A DNA stretch of 35,464 nucleotides, from positions 1 to 35,464 of the forward strand of contig NZ_FOSR01000004.1 in assembly GCF_900114325.1 (NCBI RefSeq). Reading direction: 5' to 3'. Below the pieces are notes generated by a model. The model was not told the origin of the DNA. It saw only the letters and a program-made list of their open reading frames with translations, and ran no database searches. The stretch's first letter is position 1, and the number at the start of each line of letters is the position of its first letter. Positions 1,352-31,154 of the stretch are shown here, one piece after another. Both the position numbers and the translations under genes were made by a program. The DNA is from Rhodanobacter glycinis. GTDB taxonomy: Bacteria; Pseudomonadota; Gammaproteobacteria; Xanthomonadales; Rhodanobacteraceae.

Positions 1352-1687
1352 GTAATTCCGACATCGCGGATCCCGCCGGGCAGGTTGTCGAGAAACCTTA
1401 TCGTCACTGCATAGGCTGCAAGCTGGCCGCACTGATCGGCTTCATGCCGGTCAATCCGACAACAGCCGAAAGGCCGGTCAAGCCGGGATCCAGCGCTTTC
1501 AAACCATTGAACGTAAAGGCACTGGATTCCTGCCTTCGCAGGAATGACGGGCAAAAAACTGGTTGATCAGACCTTCCCTGATGGCCCTCAATCCCCTTGA
1601 GTCGTGATCGACTGGTACACCACCCTGCCACACTCCCACCAACCGATCGGCATGCCCCGCCGCCGGCCGGTCGATGCAATCGTGACA
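1352..1687. other. Gene-free stretch between the IS and the autotransporter
   Basis: No supported gene was found in these 336 bp. The one recognisable item is a REP-like hairpin at 1520-1557. I see no convincing rho-independent terminator just after the autotransporter stop codon; the only short dyad, ATCAG/CTGAT near 1566-1582, is weak. Confidence 0.6.
1520..1557 (+). repeat. REP-like palindromic repeat, copy A
   Basis: A 38-bp unit with a hairpin, stem TTCCTGC/GCAGGAA and loop CTTC, followed by ATGACGGGCAAAAA. The reverse complement of 28421-28458 matches it at 36 of 38 positions. The two differences are a T-A pair here replaced by a G-C pair there, so the stem is preserved. Such elements are typical extragenic palindromes; it is located past the 3' end of the autotransporter gene. 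Confidence 0.8.
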
Positions 1688-14930: not shown

Positions 14931-15341
14931 GTTCGTTTCCCCGTGAACACGGACGGTCATCGTCCGAACCCGGCTTGGATGCCGCTCCATGCCGTAAAGG
15001 TTTAACCGGATCCGCCTTGCAGGCATGGGCCATGCGTCATCCCGTGCTGTTGGTCATGCTGTCGTGACCATGCCATCCGACACACGCAGCTCAATGGCAG
15101 AAACGTGGTCACACGCCAGGAGCGTGGGCGGTAGAAACTTTCGAGGCGAAAAAGTGGCTGCGTGAGGACAGATTTTCGACGATTCGCCGGCCCATAGTGG
15201 TTCTATGGGCCAAGAAGCGACGGACATATGGACCACGCAGCCACTTTTGCAGCCCGGAAGATTTCTGCCGCCCACGCTCCTAGGCAAGCCGCCACGGGCG
15301 AGCTAAGTTGCCAGGATCGACCGTCGTTCGTGGAGCAGCAC
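14931..15341. other. Divergent intergenic region holding palindromic element copy 1
   Basis: These 411 bp separate the minus-strand DUF2884 gene from the plus-strand FAD dehydrogenase gene. The palindromic element occupies 15118-15281. The parts on either side show no gene; any promoters for the two genes must lie here, with the dehydrogenase promoter most likely within or right after the element. Confidence 0.6.
15118..15281 (+). repeat. Long palindromic element, short form (164 bp)
   Basis: The ends AGGAGCGTGGGCGG and CCGCCCACGCTCCT are perfect 14-bp inverted repeats, extended by imperfect pairing (CTGCGTG.. against ..CACGCAG) to about 53 bp per arm. The centre is a 9-bp perfect stem, 15189-15197 with 15203-15211, and a TGGTT loop. 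A longer copy in opposite orientation lies at 18430-18645. Relative to it, this one lacks 26 bp at 15175/15176 and 26 bp at 15222/15223, i.e. from both arms. It encodes nothing obvious. A non-autonomous (MITE-like) or structured REP-type element is the best description; no target duplication could be assigned. Confidence 0.8.
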
Positions 15342-17000
15342 ATGCCCGATTCCACCGATGTCATCGTCGTCGGCGCCGGCCTGGCCGGACTGGTTGCCGC
15401 CACCGAGCTGACCAATGCCGGCCGCCACGTGCGCGTGCTGGAGCAGGAGCCGGAACAGAGCCTGGGCGGCCAGGCGTTCTGGTCGTTCGGCGGCCTGTTC
15501 TTCGTCGACTCGCCGGAGCAGCGGCGCATGGGCGTGCATGATTCGCATGCACTGGCGCTGGCCGACTGGATGGGCACCGCTGCGTTCGATCGGCCCGAGG
15601 ATCACTGGCCGCGACGCTGGGCCGAGGCCTATGTGGATTTCGCCGCCGGCGAGAAACGCGCCTGGCTGCACGCCATGGGCATGCGCTGGTTTCCAGTGGT
15701 GGGCTGGGCCGAGCGCGGCGGCTATGGCGCGATCGGCCACGGCAACTCGGTGCCGCGCTTCCACGTCACCTGGGGCACCGGGCCGGGCGTGCTCGAACCG
15801 TTTGTGCGCCGCGCCGGCGAAGCCGTGGCCAAAGGTTTGCTGCGTTTCGACTTCCGCCATCGCGTGGACGAGCTGATCGTGGAAAACGGCGCCGTCGTCG
15901 GCGTGCGCGGCACGCGCCTGGTCGACGATGCCGCGGCACGCGGCAAGCCCAGCTCACGCGCGGCAGCGGGCGATTTCGAACAACGCGCGCAGGCGGTGAT
16001 CGTGGCTTCCGGCGGCATCGGCGGGAACCAGGCACTGGTGCGCCAGAACTGGCCGGCACGGCTCGGCACGCCACCGGCGCACATGCTTTGCGGCGTACCC
16101 GCGCACGTGGATGGCCGCATGCTCGGCATCAGCGAAACCGCCGGCGCGCACCTGATCAACCGCGACCGCATGTGGCACTACGTGGAAGGCATCGAGAACT
16201 GGGACCCGATCTGGCCGATGCACGCCATCCGCATCCTGCCCGGGCCGTCGTCGCTATGGTTCGACGCCACCGGCAAGCGTCTGCCCGGGCCGCTGTGGCC
16301 GGGTTTCGACACGCTGGGCACGCTGGAATACCTGCGCCATACCGGCCACGACTACAGCTGGTTCGTGCTCGATCAGTCGATCATTCGGCGCGAATTTGCG
16401 CTGTCCGGTTCGGAGCAGAATCCCGACCTTACCGGCAAAAGCTGGCGCCAGGTGGCGAAGCGCGCAATCGGCAAGCACGCGCCGGCACCGGTGGAGGCGT
16501 TCAAGCAGCACGGTCGCGACTTCGTCGTGCGCGACACGCTGGAGGAACTGGTGGCCGGCATGAATGCACTGGCCGGCAACGCACTGCTGGATGCGGCGCA
16601 ACTGCGCCGCGAAATCGAGGCGCGCGACCGGCAGTTCGACAACCCCTACAGCAAGGACAGCCAGGTCATGGCGATCCACAATGCGCGGCGCTACCGCGGT
16701 GATCGACTGGTGCGCGTGGCCAAGCCGCACCGCCTGCTTGATCCCTCGCATGGACCGCTGATCGCGGTGCGCCTGAACATCCTCACCCGCAAGACCCTGG
16801 GCGGCCTCGAAACCGACCTGCAGGCCCGCGTGCTGGGCCACGACGGCCAGCCGCTGCCTGGCCTGTACGCCGCCGGCGAAGCGGCCGGTTTCGGGGGCGG
16901 TGGCCTGCACGGTTATCGCTCGCTGGAGGGCAGCTTCCTCGGCGGTTGCCTGTTTTCCGGGCGCATCGCCGGGCGCGCCGCTGCGGCCGCCGTGGCATGA
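15342..17000 (+). CDS. FAD-binding dehydrogenase (COG3573-like flavoprotein)
   Basis: A 552-residue flavoprotein of the fumarate-reductase/ketosteroid-dehydrogenase superfamily. The N-terminal Rossmann motif VVGAGLAGLVAA is followed by the acidic end of strand 2 (VLEQE) and SLGGQAFWSFGGLFF. A second dinucleotide-associated segment, IVASGGIGGN, lies at about 223-233. The C-terminus has LPGLYAAGEAAGFGGGG and a GSFLGGCLFSGR stretch, as expected for this fold. The length matches COG3573 proteins (about 550). The substrate is not evident. ATG 15342 has GGAG nearby; the upstream reading frame runs into the palindromic element and is not coding. The stop overlaps the start of the panE-like gene by 4 nt (ATGA), so the two are co-translated and may act in one pathway. 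Confidence 0.9.
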   Translation: MPDSTDVIVVGAGLAGLVAATELTNAGRHVRVLEQEPEQSLGGQAFWSFGGLFFVDSPEQRRMGVHDSHALALADWMGTAAFDRPEDHWPRRWAEAYVDFAAGEKRAWLHAMGMRWFPVVGWAERGGYGAIGHGNSVPRFHVTWGTGPGVLEPFVRRAGEAVAKGLLRFDFRHRVDELIVENGAVVGVRGTRLVDDAAARGKPSSRAAAGDFEQRAQAVIVASGGIGGNQALVRQNWPARLGTPPAHMLCGVPAHVDGRMLGISETAGAHLINRDRMWHYVEGIENWDPIWPMHAIRILPGPSSLWFDATGKRLPGPLWPGFDTLGTLEYLRHTGHDYSWFVLDQSIIRREFALSGSEQNPDLTGKSWRQVAKRAIGKHAPAPVEAFKQHGRDFVVRDTLEELVAGMNALAGNALLDAAQLRREIEARDRQFDNPYSKDSQVMAIHNARRYRGDRLVRVAKPHRLLDPSHGPLIAVRLNILTRKTLGGLETDLQARVLGHDGQPLPGLYAAGEAAGFGGGGLHGYRSLEGSFLGGCLFSGRIAGRAAAAAVA

Positions 17001-18016
17001 GCGAGAGCCGCTTGCCACGCATGGCCATCCACGGCGCCGGCCTGGTCGGCTGCTATCTGGGCGGACGTCTGCACGGCCACGCCGCCGTGCGACTGATCTG
17101 CCGGCCGTACATGATCACCGTGCTCAACGAGCACGGTCTCGGCACCAGTGACTTCCGCGGCCATCAGCGGCATGTCGCCGTCGACTCGCTGGACCTGCGC
17201 ACGCATGCCAGTGCCGCCGTCGATGCCGAGCTGGTGCTGGTGACGGTGAAGTCCGCCGCCACGGCGGAAGTGGCGGAGAAGCTGGCCGGCGTGCTCGCAC
17301 CCGGTGCCGTGGTCATCAGCTTCCAGAACGGACTGCACAACGCGCAGCAACTGCGCGCGGCGCTGCCGGCGCATACCGTGCTGGCCGGCATGGTGCCATT
17401 CAACGTGGTGCAAACTTCGCCCGGCGTATTCCACCAGGCCTCATCCGGCGCATTGATGGTGGAGGACTCGCCCGCGCTGGCACCATTCATGGAGGCCTTC
17501 GCCAGCGCCGGCCTGCCGCTGCAACCGCGCAGCGACATGCCCGCCGTGCAATGGGCCAAGCTGCTGCTCAACCTCAACAACGCGCTGAACGCGTTGAGCG
17601 GCTTGCCGTTGCGCGAAGAACTGTCGCAACGCGCATGGCGGCGTTGCCTGGCACTGGCCCAGCGCGAGGCACTGCACGTACTCGATGCCGCGAAGATTCG
17701 CCCGGCGCGACTTACGCCGTTGCCGCCCGGCTGGTTGCCGCGCGTGCTGGAATGGCCCGACCTGCTGTTCCGCCGCGTCGCCACCACGATGCTGGCAATC
17801 GACCCGCTGGCGCGCTCCTCCACCTGGGAGGATTTGCAGACGGGTCGGCGTACCGAAGTGGACTACATCAACGGCGAAGTGGTGAAACTGGCCGAGGCAC
17901 ACGGCCTGCGTGCCCCGGTCAACGCGCGCCTGGTCGACTTGATCCGCGAAGCGGAGCAGCAGCCGCGACACTGGCTTGGCGAAGCCTTGCTGGCGGAGTT
18001 GCGCAACGCCTGTTGA
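16997..18016 (+). CDS. panE: 2-dehydropantoate 2-reductase-like protein (ketopantoate reductase)
   Basis: A 339-residue NADPH-dependent reductase of the ApbA/PanE family, whose classic role is reduction of ketopantoate to pantoate for coenzyme A synthesis. The nucleotide-binding GAGLVGCYLGG sits at about residues 13-23. VTVKS and ISFQNGL follow at the end of the Rossmann domain. The central AKLLLNLNNALNALSG carries the catalytic lysine and the conserved asparagines. RRTEVDYINGEVV and HGLRAPVNARLVDLI near the C-terminus are typical PanE signatures. It overlaps the FAD dehydrogenase by 4 nt. Because PanE paralogs act on many 2-keto acids and this copy is tied to a flavin dehydrogenase rather than to other pan genes, the exact substrate is uncertain. 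Confidence 0.88.
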   Translation: MSESRLPRMAIHGAGLVGCYLGGRLHGHAAVRLICRPYMITVLNEHGLGTSDFRGHQRHVAVDSLDLRTHASAAVDAELVLVTVKSAATAEVAEKLAGVLAPGAVVISFQNGLHNAQQLRAALPAHTVLAGMVPFNVVQTSPGVFHQASSGALMVEDSPALAPFMEAFASAGLPLQPRSDMPAVQWAKLLLNLNNALNALSGLPLREELSQRAWRRCLALAQREALHVLDAAKIRPARLTPLPPGWLPRVLEWPDLLFRRVATTMLAIDPLARSSTWEDLQTGRRTEVDYINGEVVKLAEAHGLRAPVNARLVDLIREAEQQPRHWLGEALLAELRNAC

Positions 18017-18050
18017 CGCCAACGCCCTCCGCCTCATCGGCGACGTCGGT

Positions 18051-18368
18051 TCAGGACCGGCGTTCGTCGATATCGGTCACCAGGCCATCGACGATGGTCA
18101 CCACGATCACGTGACCGTCGCGCCGATACTGCCAGCGCTGGCCGCCCGAGCTGCTGCGGCCTCTCGTTCCCCGGCGATGACGACCTCGCGAGCTGCCGCG
18201 ATGCGCGCGATACGACGGGCGCCCCAGCAATTCCTGCACGTGCGCCGCGGTATCGCCCACCATCAGCAATCGATTGCCCACGCGCAAGCTGTCGGAGGCC
18301 TGCGCCACGCCGGCACAAGCGATCCACGCGAACCCGAAAAGCACGAACACCCACATACGATGAGGCAT
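18051..18368 (-). CDS. Small exported DUF2845-like protein
   Basis: A 105-residue secreted protein. ATG 18368 follows AGGGAGACGTC, and the signal peptide ends at about AQAS (residue 24). The mature start SLRVGNRLLMVGDTAAHVQELLGRP resembles DUF2845, which begins with a short beta strand, VGD and a helix, as in BamE/SmpA-like folds. An arginine-, glycine- and serine-rich loop of about 25 residues (RGSSRGRHRRGTRGRSSSGG) is unusual, and is followed by QRWQYRR and VVTIVDGLVTDID. It is convergent with panE (34-bp gap). Its start lies about 60 bp from the palindromic element copy 2. It is the last gene of the segment enclosed by the two palindromic elements. Confidence 0.8.
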   Translation of the reverse strand: MPHRMWVFVLFGFAWIACAGVAQASDSLRVGNRLLMVGDTAAHVQELLGRPSYRAHRGSSRGRHRRGTRGRSSSGGQRWQYRRDGHVIVVTIVDGLVTDIDERRS

Positions 18369-18429
18369 GACGTCTCCCTGTCTGTCGTTGCACAAGCCCG
18401 GCACGCCGCCGAGCGGATCCTGGACTGCC

Positions 18430-18645
18430 AGGAGCGTGGGCGGCAGAAATCTTCCGGGCTGCAAAAGTGTCTGCGTGGTCCATGTGTGACCAGCTTCGCT
18501 GTTATGAAGCGCTTCGTCGCTTCCTGGCCCATAGAACCACTATGGGCCGGCGAATCGTCGAAGCGCTTCATAACAGCGAAGCTGGTCAAATCTGTCCTCA
18601 CGCAGCCACTTTTTCGCCTCGAAAGTTTCTACCGCCCAAGCTCCT
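18430..18645 (-). repeat. Long palindromic element, long form (216 bp)
   Basis: The same element as 15118-15281 in the opposite orientation. The outer arms are imperfect inverted repeats of about 53 bp. Inside them are two perfect 29-bp complementary arms at 18488-18516 and 18559-18587. The centre is a 9-bp stem at 18526-18534 with 18540-18548 and a loop AACCA. Folded, the element forms a hairpin covering nearly all its length. Its right end AGCTCCT overlaps the TAG stop codon of the DUF924 gene (18644-18646). It has no coding capacity of its own that I would credit. Confidence 0.82.
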
Positions 18646-19228
18646 AGAACCCCGCGCCTGGTTGCGCGAGATAGTGCAGTTCCTCCTCCGTGCTCGGTCG
18701 ACCCAGCACGGCGTTGCGATGTGGAAAGCGGCCGAAGCGCGCGATCACTTCGCGATGACGCCGAGCATAGTTCAGCGAACTTCGGAAACGGGGGCGCTCC
18801 GCCGGCGTCACCTCCGCGTACAAGGCCTCGAACAACGCCACCGAACGCTGCTGCAGGCCTTCATTTTCAGCATGTTCCAGCGGCATGTAGGCAAACCCGC
18901 GCTGCAGCGGCGGAAGCTGGCGGTCGAAACCTTCGGCAATGCCCGACAAGGCAAGCCGCTGCGCACTGACGTCCTGCGCCCACGCGCGCGGGTCATCCCG
19001 ATACAGGTTGCGCGGAAACTGATCGAGCAGGATCAGCAGTGCCAGCCAGCCGCGCGGCGTGTCCGCCCATGCATCGAGGCGACCTTCCGCGGCGGCCTGC
19101 ACCTCGGCGCCGAAGCGGGCCCGAATCTGTTCGTCAAAGGCGGCACTCTTGGCAAACCAGCGTTTGGCCTGCTTGTCGGCGAACCAGAAATCCAGCAACG
19201 CGTCGGCGCGGGACGGTGTCGTGGACAT
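18644..19228 (-). CDS. DUF924 family protein
   Basis: A 194-residue cytoplasmic all-helical protein of the DUF924 (TPR-like) family, of unknown function. Family signatures are DALLDFWFAD near the start, LLILLDQFPRNLYRDDPRAW in the middle (about 84-103), GFAYMPLEHAE at about 131-141 and RRHREVIARFGRFPHRNAVLGR towards the end. ATG 19228 has a strong GAGGAGG. The stop codon TAG lies in the terminal CTAG of the palindromic element (18644-18646), so insertion of that element may have set the present C-terminus GAGF. The predicted length still matches the family. It is the last gene of a minus-strand run beginning at 21272. Confidence 0.9.
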   Translation of the reverse strand: MSTTPSRADALLDFWFADKQAKRWFAKSAAFDEQIRARFGAEVQAAAEGRLDAWADTPRGWLALLILLDQFPRNLYRDDPRAWAQDVSAQRLALSGIAEGFDRQLPPLQRGFAYMPLEHAENEGLQQRSVALFEALYAEVTPAERPRFRSSLNYARRHREVIARFGRFPHRNAVLGRPSTEEELHYLAQPGAGF

Positions 19229-28337: not shown

Positions 28338-28651
28338 GCTCGTCATTCCGGCGAAGGCCCACTGCTGTCCGGAATAATTTCGAATACCCGCAGTCGTGCG
28401 GTGGCATATGCCGAAATCGGTTTTTGCCCGTCATTCCGGCGAAGGCCGGAATCCAGTGACTGTGTGGCTTGAGCAAGCGTGATCGTCACTGGATCCCGGC
28501 CTTCGCCGGGATGACGAGCACGATAGGTCATCGCCAGCCGATGTGGAGTCACCTCCTCGCCGTATCCCGGGCAAACATCGCCACGCCTTCGCCTTGGGAG
28601 CCATGCCCGGGTTATTCCGGACAACAGTGGACCGACGCCGGGATGACGAGC
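28338..28651. repeat. Compound palindromic (REP/BIME-like) island
   Basis: The outer 40-bp arms, 28338-28377 and 28612-28651, are inverted and agree at 35 of 40 positions. Within are two more REP units facing each other, 28429-28460 and 28485-28516, that match at 30 of 32 positions. Each unit has the core TTCCGGC/GCCGGAA or CCCGGC/GCCGGG with a CTTC or GAAG loop. The mixture of nested and facing copies is typical of BIME-like arrays. The unit at 28421-28458 is the close partner of the repeat at 1520-1557. Confidence 0.8.
28421..28458 (-). repeat. REP-like palindromic repeat, copy B
   Basis: Its reverse complement matches 1520-1557 at 36 of 38 positions, including the TTTTTGCCC tail. The two changes form one base pair of the stem (G-C here, T-A in the other copy). 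Confidence 0.8.
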
Positions 28652-31042: not shown

Positions 31043-31126
31043 GTAGGAGCCCGCTCGCGGGCGATGCTCCTGCTCTGGCGCTCCAGAGAGCGGAAAGCAA
31101 AAGCATCGCCCGCCAGCGGGCCCCTA
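31043..31126. repeat. GTAGGAGC-type palindromic repeat, copy 1
   Basis: Arms 31043-31068 and 31101-31126 pair at all but two positions; the centre holds a smaller stem with GGCGCTCC. It sits between the amidinotransferase-fold gene and the GST gene. It belongs to the GTAGGAGC type of REP element, also seen at 32239-32313. Confidence 0.75.
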
Positions 31127-31154
31127 CACTTGGGGCCCCTGCCGGAGCGTTGCC

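Follow-up and report, generated by a model that had tools for sequence, protein, structure and literature searches.

We examined a 35,464-nucleotide stretch of the Rhodanobacter glycinis genome (RefSeq assembly GCF_900114325.1, contig NZ_FOSR01000004.1, positions 1 to 35,464), here called the window, which contains two inverted copies of a palindromic repeat. The longer copy, of 216 bp, carries in each of its two arms a 26-bp unit that is lacking from the shorter one of 164 bp, and we consider it probable that this unit is a very small mobile repeat. The 164-bp copy (15118-15281) sits between a DUF2884 gene and a gene for a flavin adenine dinucleotide (FAD)-binding oxidoreductase, and the end of the long copy provides the TAG stop codon of a DUF924 reading frame on the minus strand (18644-18646). 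The features on which the analysis centers are as follows (a caret marks the junction; loci carry L numbers and genomes G numbers throughout).

15118..15281, plus strand: block-less 164-bp copy of the host palindrome, with arm A on the left and arm B on the right
15175..15176: empty arm-A site, AGATTT^TCGACG; the same site is occupied in L021, L023 and L025
15222..15223: empty arm-B site, CATATGTCCGTCG on the minus strand; it reads CATATTT^CCGTCG in some other copies and is occupied in L024 and L025
18430..18645, minus strand: host palindrome, 216-bp copy with a block in each arm, inverted relative to the 164-bp copy
18488..18513, plus strand: 26-bp unit in arm B of the long copy, followed by T where empty copies show C
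18562..18587, minus strand: 26-bp unit in arm A of the long copy, identical to the arm-B unit

A preliminary description of this DNA had traced the size difference between the two copies to one 26-bp block per arm, and we recovered this difference at every position that it had reported. Inverted matches join 15118-15175 with 18588-18645 (98%), 15175-15222 with 18515-18562 (98%), and 15224-15281 with 18430-18487 (97%). The perfect 29-bp arms described for the long copy (18488-18516 and 18559-18587) likewise proved accurate and consist of the 26-bp blocks plus three more bases. Folding as single-stranded DNA gave z-scores of -13.6 for the 164-bp copy and -17.2 for the 216-bp copy against 200 dinucleotide shuffles, and an Rfam scan of the window yielded no match above the gathering score.

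Copies of the host palindrome and occupancy of their arms

A search of the R. glycinis genome for the host palindrome, in which 40 of 56 first-look candidates were scored, returned 25 close copies (L001 to L025, L025 being the 216-bp copy of the window) as well as more remote ones that differ in their ends (L026, L027 and L031) or in their interior (L037). The palindrome is thus a multicopy, strongly structured repeat, as had been supposed, and with its terminal inverted repeats and many copies it shows the features of a miniature inverted-repeat transposable element (MITE). The copies were aligned in a common orientation, with arm A on the AGATT side and arm B on the ATATGGACC side. In this alignment, 21 of the 25 close copies carried no block, two carried a block in arm A only (L021 and L023), one in arm B only (L024), and one in both arms (L025).

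The preliminary description had taken the two blocks to change together, unless the arms were found to differ independently in other copies. Such independent variation (A only, B only, both, or neither) is what the 25 copies display, and the claim is not supported. Under independence, the chance of finding at least one double copy among them is 0.23 (calculated by hand), so that there is no sign of coupling between A and B in this set.

Pairs of nearly identical copies indicate how often the sites were filled. L003 and L021 differ in none of 162 host columns, and the A block is their sole difference, while L019 and L023 differ in one host column and the A block and have one private variant in common. 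Because the two pairs carry different private variants, the A block was acquired more than once; the minimum is two gains, to which L025 adds a third unless its A block was copied. One host variant and the base adjoining the B block are common to L024 and L025, but the two are not mutual nearest copies and differ at 7 of 162 host columns, so the B block may have been gained once or twice. Judged by these alignments, the genome holds paralogous sites with and without the unit, and at one of them the unit is present repeatedly, in separate sublineages.

Compensatory change in the arms of the palindrome itself, also raised in the preliminary description, was supported across species: 35 of 63 predicted pairs showed at least one two-sided change in a set of 23 block-less copies (three from the R. 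glycinis genome), where a single alignment, used without a phylogenetic null, gave both structure and counts. This set was drawn from 39 listed matches by leaving out block-bearing copies, repeat views of R. glycinis copies, and the most divergent copies. The palindrome had further been regarded as a possible mobile element, and in agreement with this, the 216-bp copy of the window is missing at the matching place in a relative (G006; 62 bp there versus 299 bp), a single place with a poorly defined left junction.

Several variants of the palindrome were also observed. L037 (C19:14195-14365) and L278:7171-7342 combine the terminal inverted repeats of the host with a different interior, which suggests that interiors have been exchanged between elements with common ends. 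Solo host ends of 19 to 28 bp without the remainder of the element occur at L034, L035 and L036 (C22:59689, C14:120449 and C20:35159). L026, L027, L031 and L068 belong to a related class of palindromes whose ends resemble AGGAGCCTGTCGG; the first three have the core of the host in common, and the last contains the 26-bp unit.

Distribution of the 26-bp unit

The unit starts with GACC, continues with an overlapping mini-hairpin, CAGC-TTC-GCTG, and ends in the tail TTRTGAAGCGCY. With up to 3 mismatches allowed, the R. glycinis genome contains seven units: five in the host palindrome, one in the AGGAGCCTGTCGG palindrome L068, and one within a repetitive extragenic palindromic (REP) sequence of the CGTC type (L069). 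L070 is a more distant variant in the same genome. Family-wide, 42 of 147 genomes harbor the unit at up to 2 mismatches, and the reversed pattern, used as a control, gave no match in any of these 147 genomes. The numbers can be considerable: G001 contains 36 units when up to 3 mismatches are allowed. With no more than 1 mismatch, 12 of 200 genomes of the order, all of them members of the window's family, carried the unit, as did 1 of 369 genomes of the class, which is the window's own. A scan of named genomes detected it in at least 115 stretches; the matches listed come chiefly from Rhodanobacter, Dyella, Frateuria, Luteimonas and Pseudoxanthomonas, and also from metagenome-assembled genomes (MAGs), one of them labelled Eremiobacteraeota. 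In Rhodanobacter fulvus (L278), the unit occupies a third site of the host palindrome family. A net length of 26 nt and dispersal in many copies place the unit in the range of 20 to 30 nt that is typical of the small dispersed repeats (SDRs) discussed below. A literature survey of partial coverage, made without a sequence-based search, returned no report of such a unit in Lysobacterales.

Two further arrangements were seen. L106 and L266 each contain two units head to tail with a period of 26 bp, and a single contig of a viral collection (L295, IMG/VR UViG 3300025949_001132) carries the unit.

Boundaries and target sites

Among 189 distinct contexts, the unit is preceded by T in 184 and followed by T in 180, with C as the next base in 181, and its start is sharp. 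When exactly 26 nt were removed, 119 of 192 distinct sites regained a stem of 7 bp or more, compared with 18 sites after removal of 25 nt, 23 after removal of 27 nt, and 10 to 25 for the other lengths between 20 and 32 nt. For stems of at least 6 bp, the corresponding numbers were 126 (26 nt), 76 (27 nt), and 17 to 41 (other lengths between 20 and 32 nt). A slightly different stem test was positive at 110 of the 192 sites and at 98 of 1,500 matched control sites; among those 110, 97 have the junction within the 5' strand of the stem, 12 have it in the loop, and one has it at the base. By simple word match, the hosts of the 192 units are CGTC-REP-like in 159 cases, AGGAGC palindromes in 16, and others in 17, about 10 of which appear by eye to be CGTC-REPs split by the unit. 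As far as aligned sequences can tell, the net difference is precisely 26 nt and the ends are precise in many unrelated hosts, and precise insertion into other repeats is a further feature held in common with SDRs.

The base that follows the unit deserves attention. At GTCATT^CCGG and ATATTT^CCGTCG sites, T stands after the unit where the empty forms show C. Given this T for C beside the arm-B block, the event would consist either of 26 bp plus one C-to-T change or of 27 bp replacing one base, and the swap fits a 27-nt piece that replaces one pyrimidine. Target duplication was sought by eye by comparing the left flank with the end of the unit, and none of general occurrence was found.

Comparisons between species point in the same direction. 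The REP at L091 carries the unit, and the aligned REP of another species (L133) is without it; L094 and L287 form a second pair of this kind, in which each place holds a REP but a single one of the two REPs contains the unit, and L213 and L241 have an insertion in common. As the REPs at aligned places have diverged, these pairs support, and do not prove, base-by-base insertion.

A sister unit with a co-varying hairpin

A sister unit, GACCRGCCNTTCGGCYGTTGARAGC, was present in 45 of the 147 family genomes at up to 3 mismatches, with 180 copies in G023 and 21 in the R. glycinis genome; its reversed pattern gave single matches in G118 and G160 only. It occupies the same kinds of sites as the main unit, namely, a CTGGAT site and a hairpin loop. 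In 54 contexts, which include a few likely chance matches (L194 and L316), stem pair 1 is A-T in 36, G-C in 15, and broken or wobble in 3, and stem pair 3 is C-G in 51, A-T in 2, and broken in 1. The mini-hairpin of the sister unit thus evidently co-varies, and a conserved hairpin with compensatory changes, another property ascribed to SDRs, was found through this unit. Co-variation of the unit hairpin rests on the sister unit because the stem of the main unit is nearly invariant.

In some genomes, the sister unit lies beside CGGGAAT-like tandem repeats (L319), a setting that calls to mind the one reported for cyanobacterial SDRs.

Interpretation as a probable very small mobile repeat

Taken together, the 26-bp block is probably a very small mobile repeat that inserts after T and before YC in the arms of palindromes. 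The block lies in a fixed orientation, and the repeats that usually host it, in an arm or a loop, are palindromic, chiefly CGTC-type REPs and the 164-bp palindrome. Repeated insertion into one palindrome would yield a symmetric pair of blocks. Matching blocks could arise in both arms because the arms offer near-equal targets (AGATTT^TCG and CATATTT^CCG).

Elements from other genomes speak for separate insertions. In Luteimonas sp. XNQY3, L231 and L293, members of the same palindrome family, are filled in both arms by units that show 5 differences in 26 positions, and L288 carries the B block only; the arm-B insertion of this genus aligns one base off the Rhodanobacter site. L260, from a Rhodanobacter MAG, is filled in arm B only, and L080 (G169) is filled in arm A. 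As read from these alignments, the units of one element evidently can differ between its arms. We infer that the events were insertions rather than losses and that the unit moves via a reaction on single-stranded (hairpin) DNA or via an RNA copy; an enzyme would presumably perform this reaction. More tentatively, a dedicated reaction may insert a 27-nt single-stranded piece (GACC ... T) into the arms or loops of hairpins where these lie exposed, in exchange for a single pyrimidine that precedes C.

Several observations weigh against mobility or against the preference for hairpins. Mobility is read from patterns, and no movement event, enzyme or source gene was seen. The folding energy of the emptied sites did not differ from that of matched GC-rich controls (medians of -16.8 and -16.7), and only 5 of 192 sites lay beyond the 5% tail of the controls, so that the hairpin claim is carried by the stem-length test. 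There, the excess is located at 7-bp stems and nearly vanishes for stems of at least 8 bp (8 of 192 sites versus 40 of 1,500 controls), and 33 of the 192 sites have no stem. The sites are not independent, since grouping by flank reduces them to 77 groups of at most 18 sites, which implies that many units travelled with their host palindrome. They are also a biased sample, as the contexts were retrieved by searches with the unit or its hosts. The stem of the main unit is identical in 176 of 189 contexts, and its changes are mostly one-sided. Finally, the five units of the palindrome family in the R. glycinis genome are all identical, which leaves short gene conversion between copies compatible with the data, and Y1 transposases show no association with the unit; both are taken up below.

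Alternative explanations

The strongest competitor is arm-to-arm copying, in which template switching of a polymerase across the hairpin (quasipalindrome correction) transfers a block gained by one arm to the opposite arm and completes the symmetric pair in a single additional step; template switching is described in parts of one source as both making and mending stems (PMC8794818). Two elements speak for occasional copying of this kind. At L157 (G115, Dyella), the units of both arms, which differ at 2 of 26 positions, begin with AACC, a start seen in only 2 of 189 contexts, although it occurs in the other genomes G029 and G077 as well. At L147, the sequence beyond the 3' end of the unit is perfectly complementary to the 5' flank of the unit, so that unit front, unit hairpin and flank form a perfect palindrome. 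The complementarity that the host arms retain across species is in line with such copying, and the variant and neighboring base shared by L024 and L025 would fit a single gain of B followed by a gain of A in L025. However, a common B gain is uncertain given the distance between these two copies, the flanks adjoining the blocks of L025 have not become complementary, and the A site is filled in L021 and L023 although no B block is there to serve as a template. The paired units of L231 and L293 are also too unlike to favor it. We therefore regard arm-to-arm copying as a doubtful explanation. Copying through a folded strand, which the preliminary description had proposed, may stand as a second process on account of L157 and L147, but is unneeded for the pair in the window.

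Somewhat less likely still is very short gene conversion between host copies after one founding insertion. The identity of the five units agrees with it, but the new site in L278 and the other host palindromes require true insertion anyway, and the identity of L003 and L021 on either side of the block keeps any conversion tract from being seen beyond it.

Mobilization of the unit by a Y1 (REP-associated or IS200-type) transposase, as supposed for GTAG-type REPs, appears improbable. Insertion without target duplication beside a mini-hairpin resembles single-strand Y1 chemistry, and one Y1 gene lies near a main unit in G155 and one near two sister units in G023. Across the 147 genomes, however, Y1 matches at an E value of 0.001 were about as frequent in genomes with the unit (29 of 42) as in those without it (69 of 105; Fisher p = 0.85), 13 unit-bearing genomes had no match, including G035 with its 20 units, and 14 of 16 inspected Y1 loci were without main or sister unit. 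Y1 was accordingly rejected as the partner.

Loss, with the long form as the ancestor from which blocks were deleted singly, would account for the use of sites A and B in two genera but is very improbable, as block-less copies prevail (21 of 25 in R. glycinis and most of those listed from relatives), the arm-B insertion point is shifted by one base between the genera, units sit in CGTC-REPs that lack them at aligned places in other species, and direct repeats that could guide a precise deletion are limited to one or two bases at the ends.

Comparison with known systems

The closest parallel to the very small mobile repeat proposed here is found in cyanobacteria. SDRs were reportedly described by Elhai and colleagues in 2008 as units of 21 to 27 nt with a common hairpin and compensatory changes, said to occur as copies within copies and within tandem heptamers and to be confined to one bacterial group. 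The unit is similar in size (about 20 to 30 nt) but belongs to other bacteria, with matches in one family of the order only; its hosts are CGTC-REPs and the 164-bp palindrome, and it enters after T and before YC. The likeness drawn here is one of description. Cyanobacterial SDRs are presented, in parts of one source, as repeats of some 20 bp that might be mobile (PMC2884548).

Other repeats resemble either the unit or its hosts. CGTC-tagged REPs, introduced in sections of one paper as short palindromic repeats without a dedicated transposase (Di Nocera et al. 2013, PMC3733652), are the commonest hosts here. The unit itself is not one of them, lacking both the CGTC end and the stem of 8 to 9 bp that many hosts have. 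With GTAG-type REPs and REP doublets forming hairpins (REPINs), which are linked to a REP-associated tyrosine transposase (RAYT) according to portions of two sources (PMC3116915 and PMC3733652), the unit shares a tetranucleotide before a short hairpin and a high copy number. It differs from them in having GACC instead of GTAG, a stem of 4 to 5 bp, and no consistent Y1 neighbor. The 164-bp host is similar to the MITE-like ERIC, NEMIS and YPAL elements, which are named in passages of one of these sources (PMC3733652), in its terminal inverted repeats and many copies; unlike for these, no target duplication was established for the host, and a search for a partner, which covered Y1 only, identified none.

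With 26 nt, the units are too short for the usual layout of a transposon, and how such small units move is a question that the SDRs of cyanobacteria had already raised. Rhodanobacter, Dyella and their relatives would provide a second group with such units, in which two copies that differ cleanly by the block, one empty and one filled, and a well-defined target rule make the question of movement testable. If the 27-nt reading is true, the unit would be among the shortest mobile DNA units, with a mini-hairpin of its own and sister lineages of different stem length, and to our knowledge the first such unit outside cyanobacteria. The natural reading of the window pair is also to be corrected, as hairpin arms that have changed alike are not in themselves proof of copying or of selection for pairing.

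Further repeats in the window

Additional repeats related to the unit or its hosts lie elsewhere in the window.

1459..1479, minus strand: degenerate sister unit GACCGGCCTTTCGGCTGTTGT, located after CTGGATCCCGGCTT and adjoining a CGTC-type REP
1523..1549, minus strand: CGTC-type REP; palindromes of this class host the unit more often than any other among the contexts seen
28429..28455, plus strand: CGTC-type REP, first half of a dimer, without unit
28490..28516, minus strand: CGTC-type REP, second half of the dimer, without unit

An inverted pair of GTAGGAGC at positions 31043-31127 of the window resembles what we take to be a GTAG-type REP dimer.

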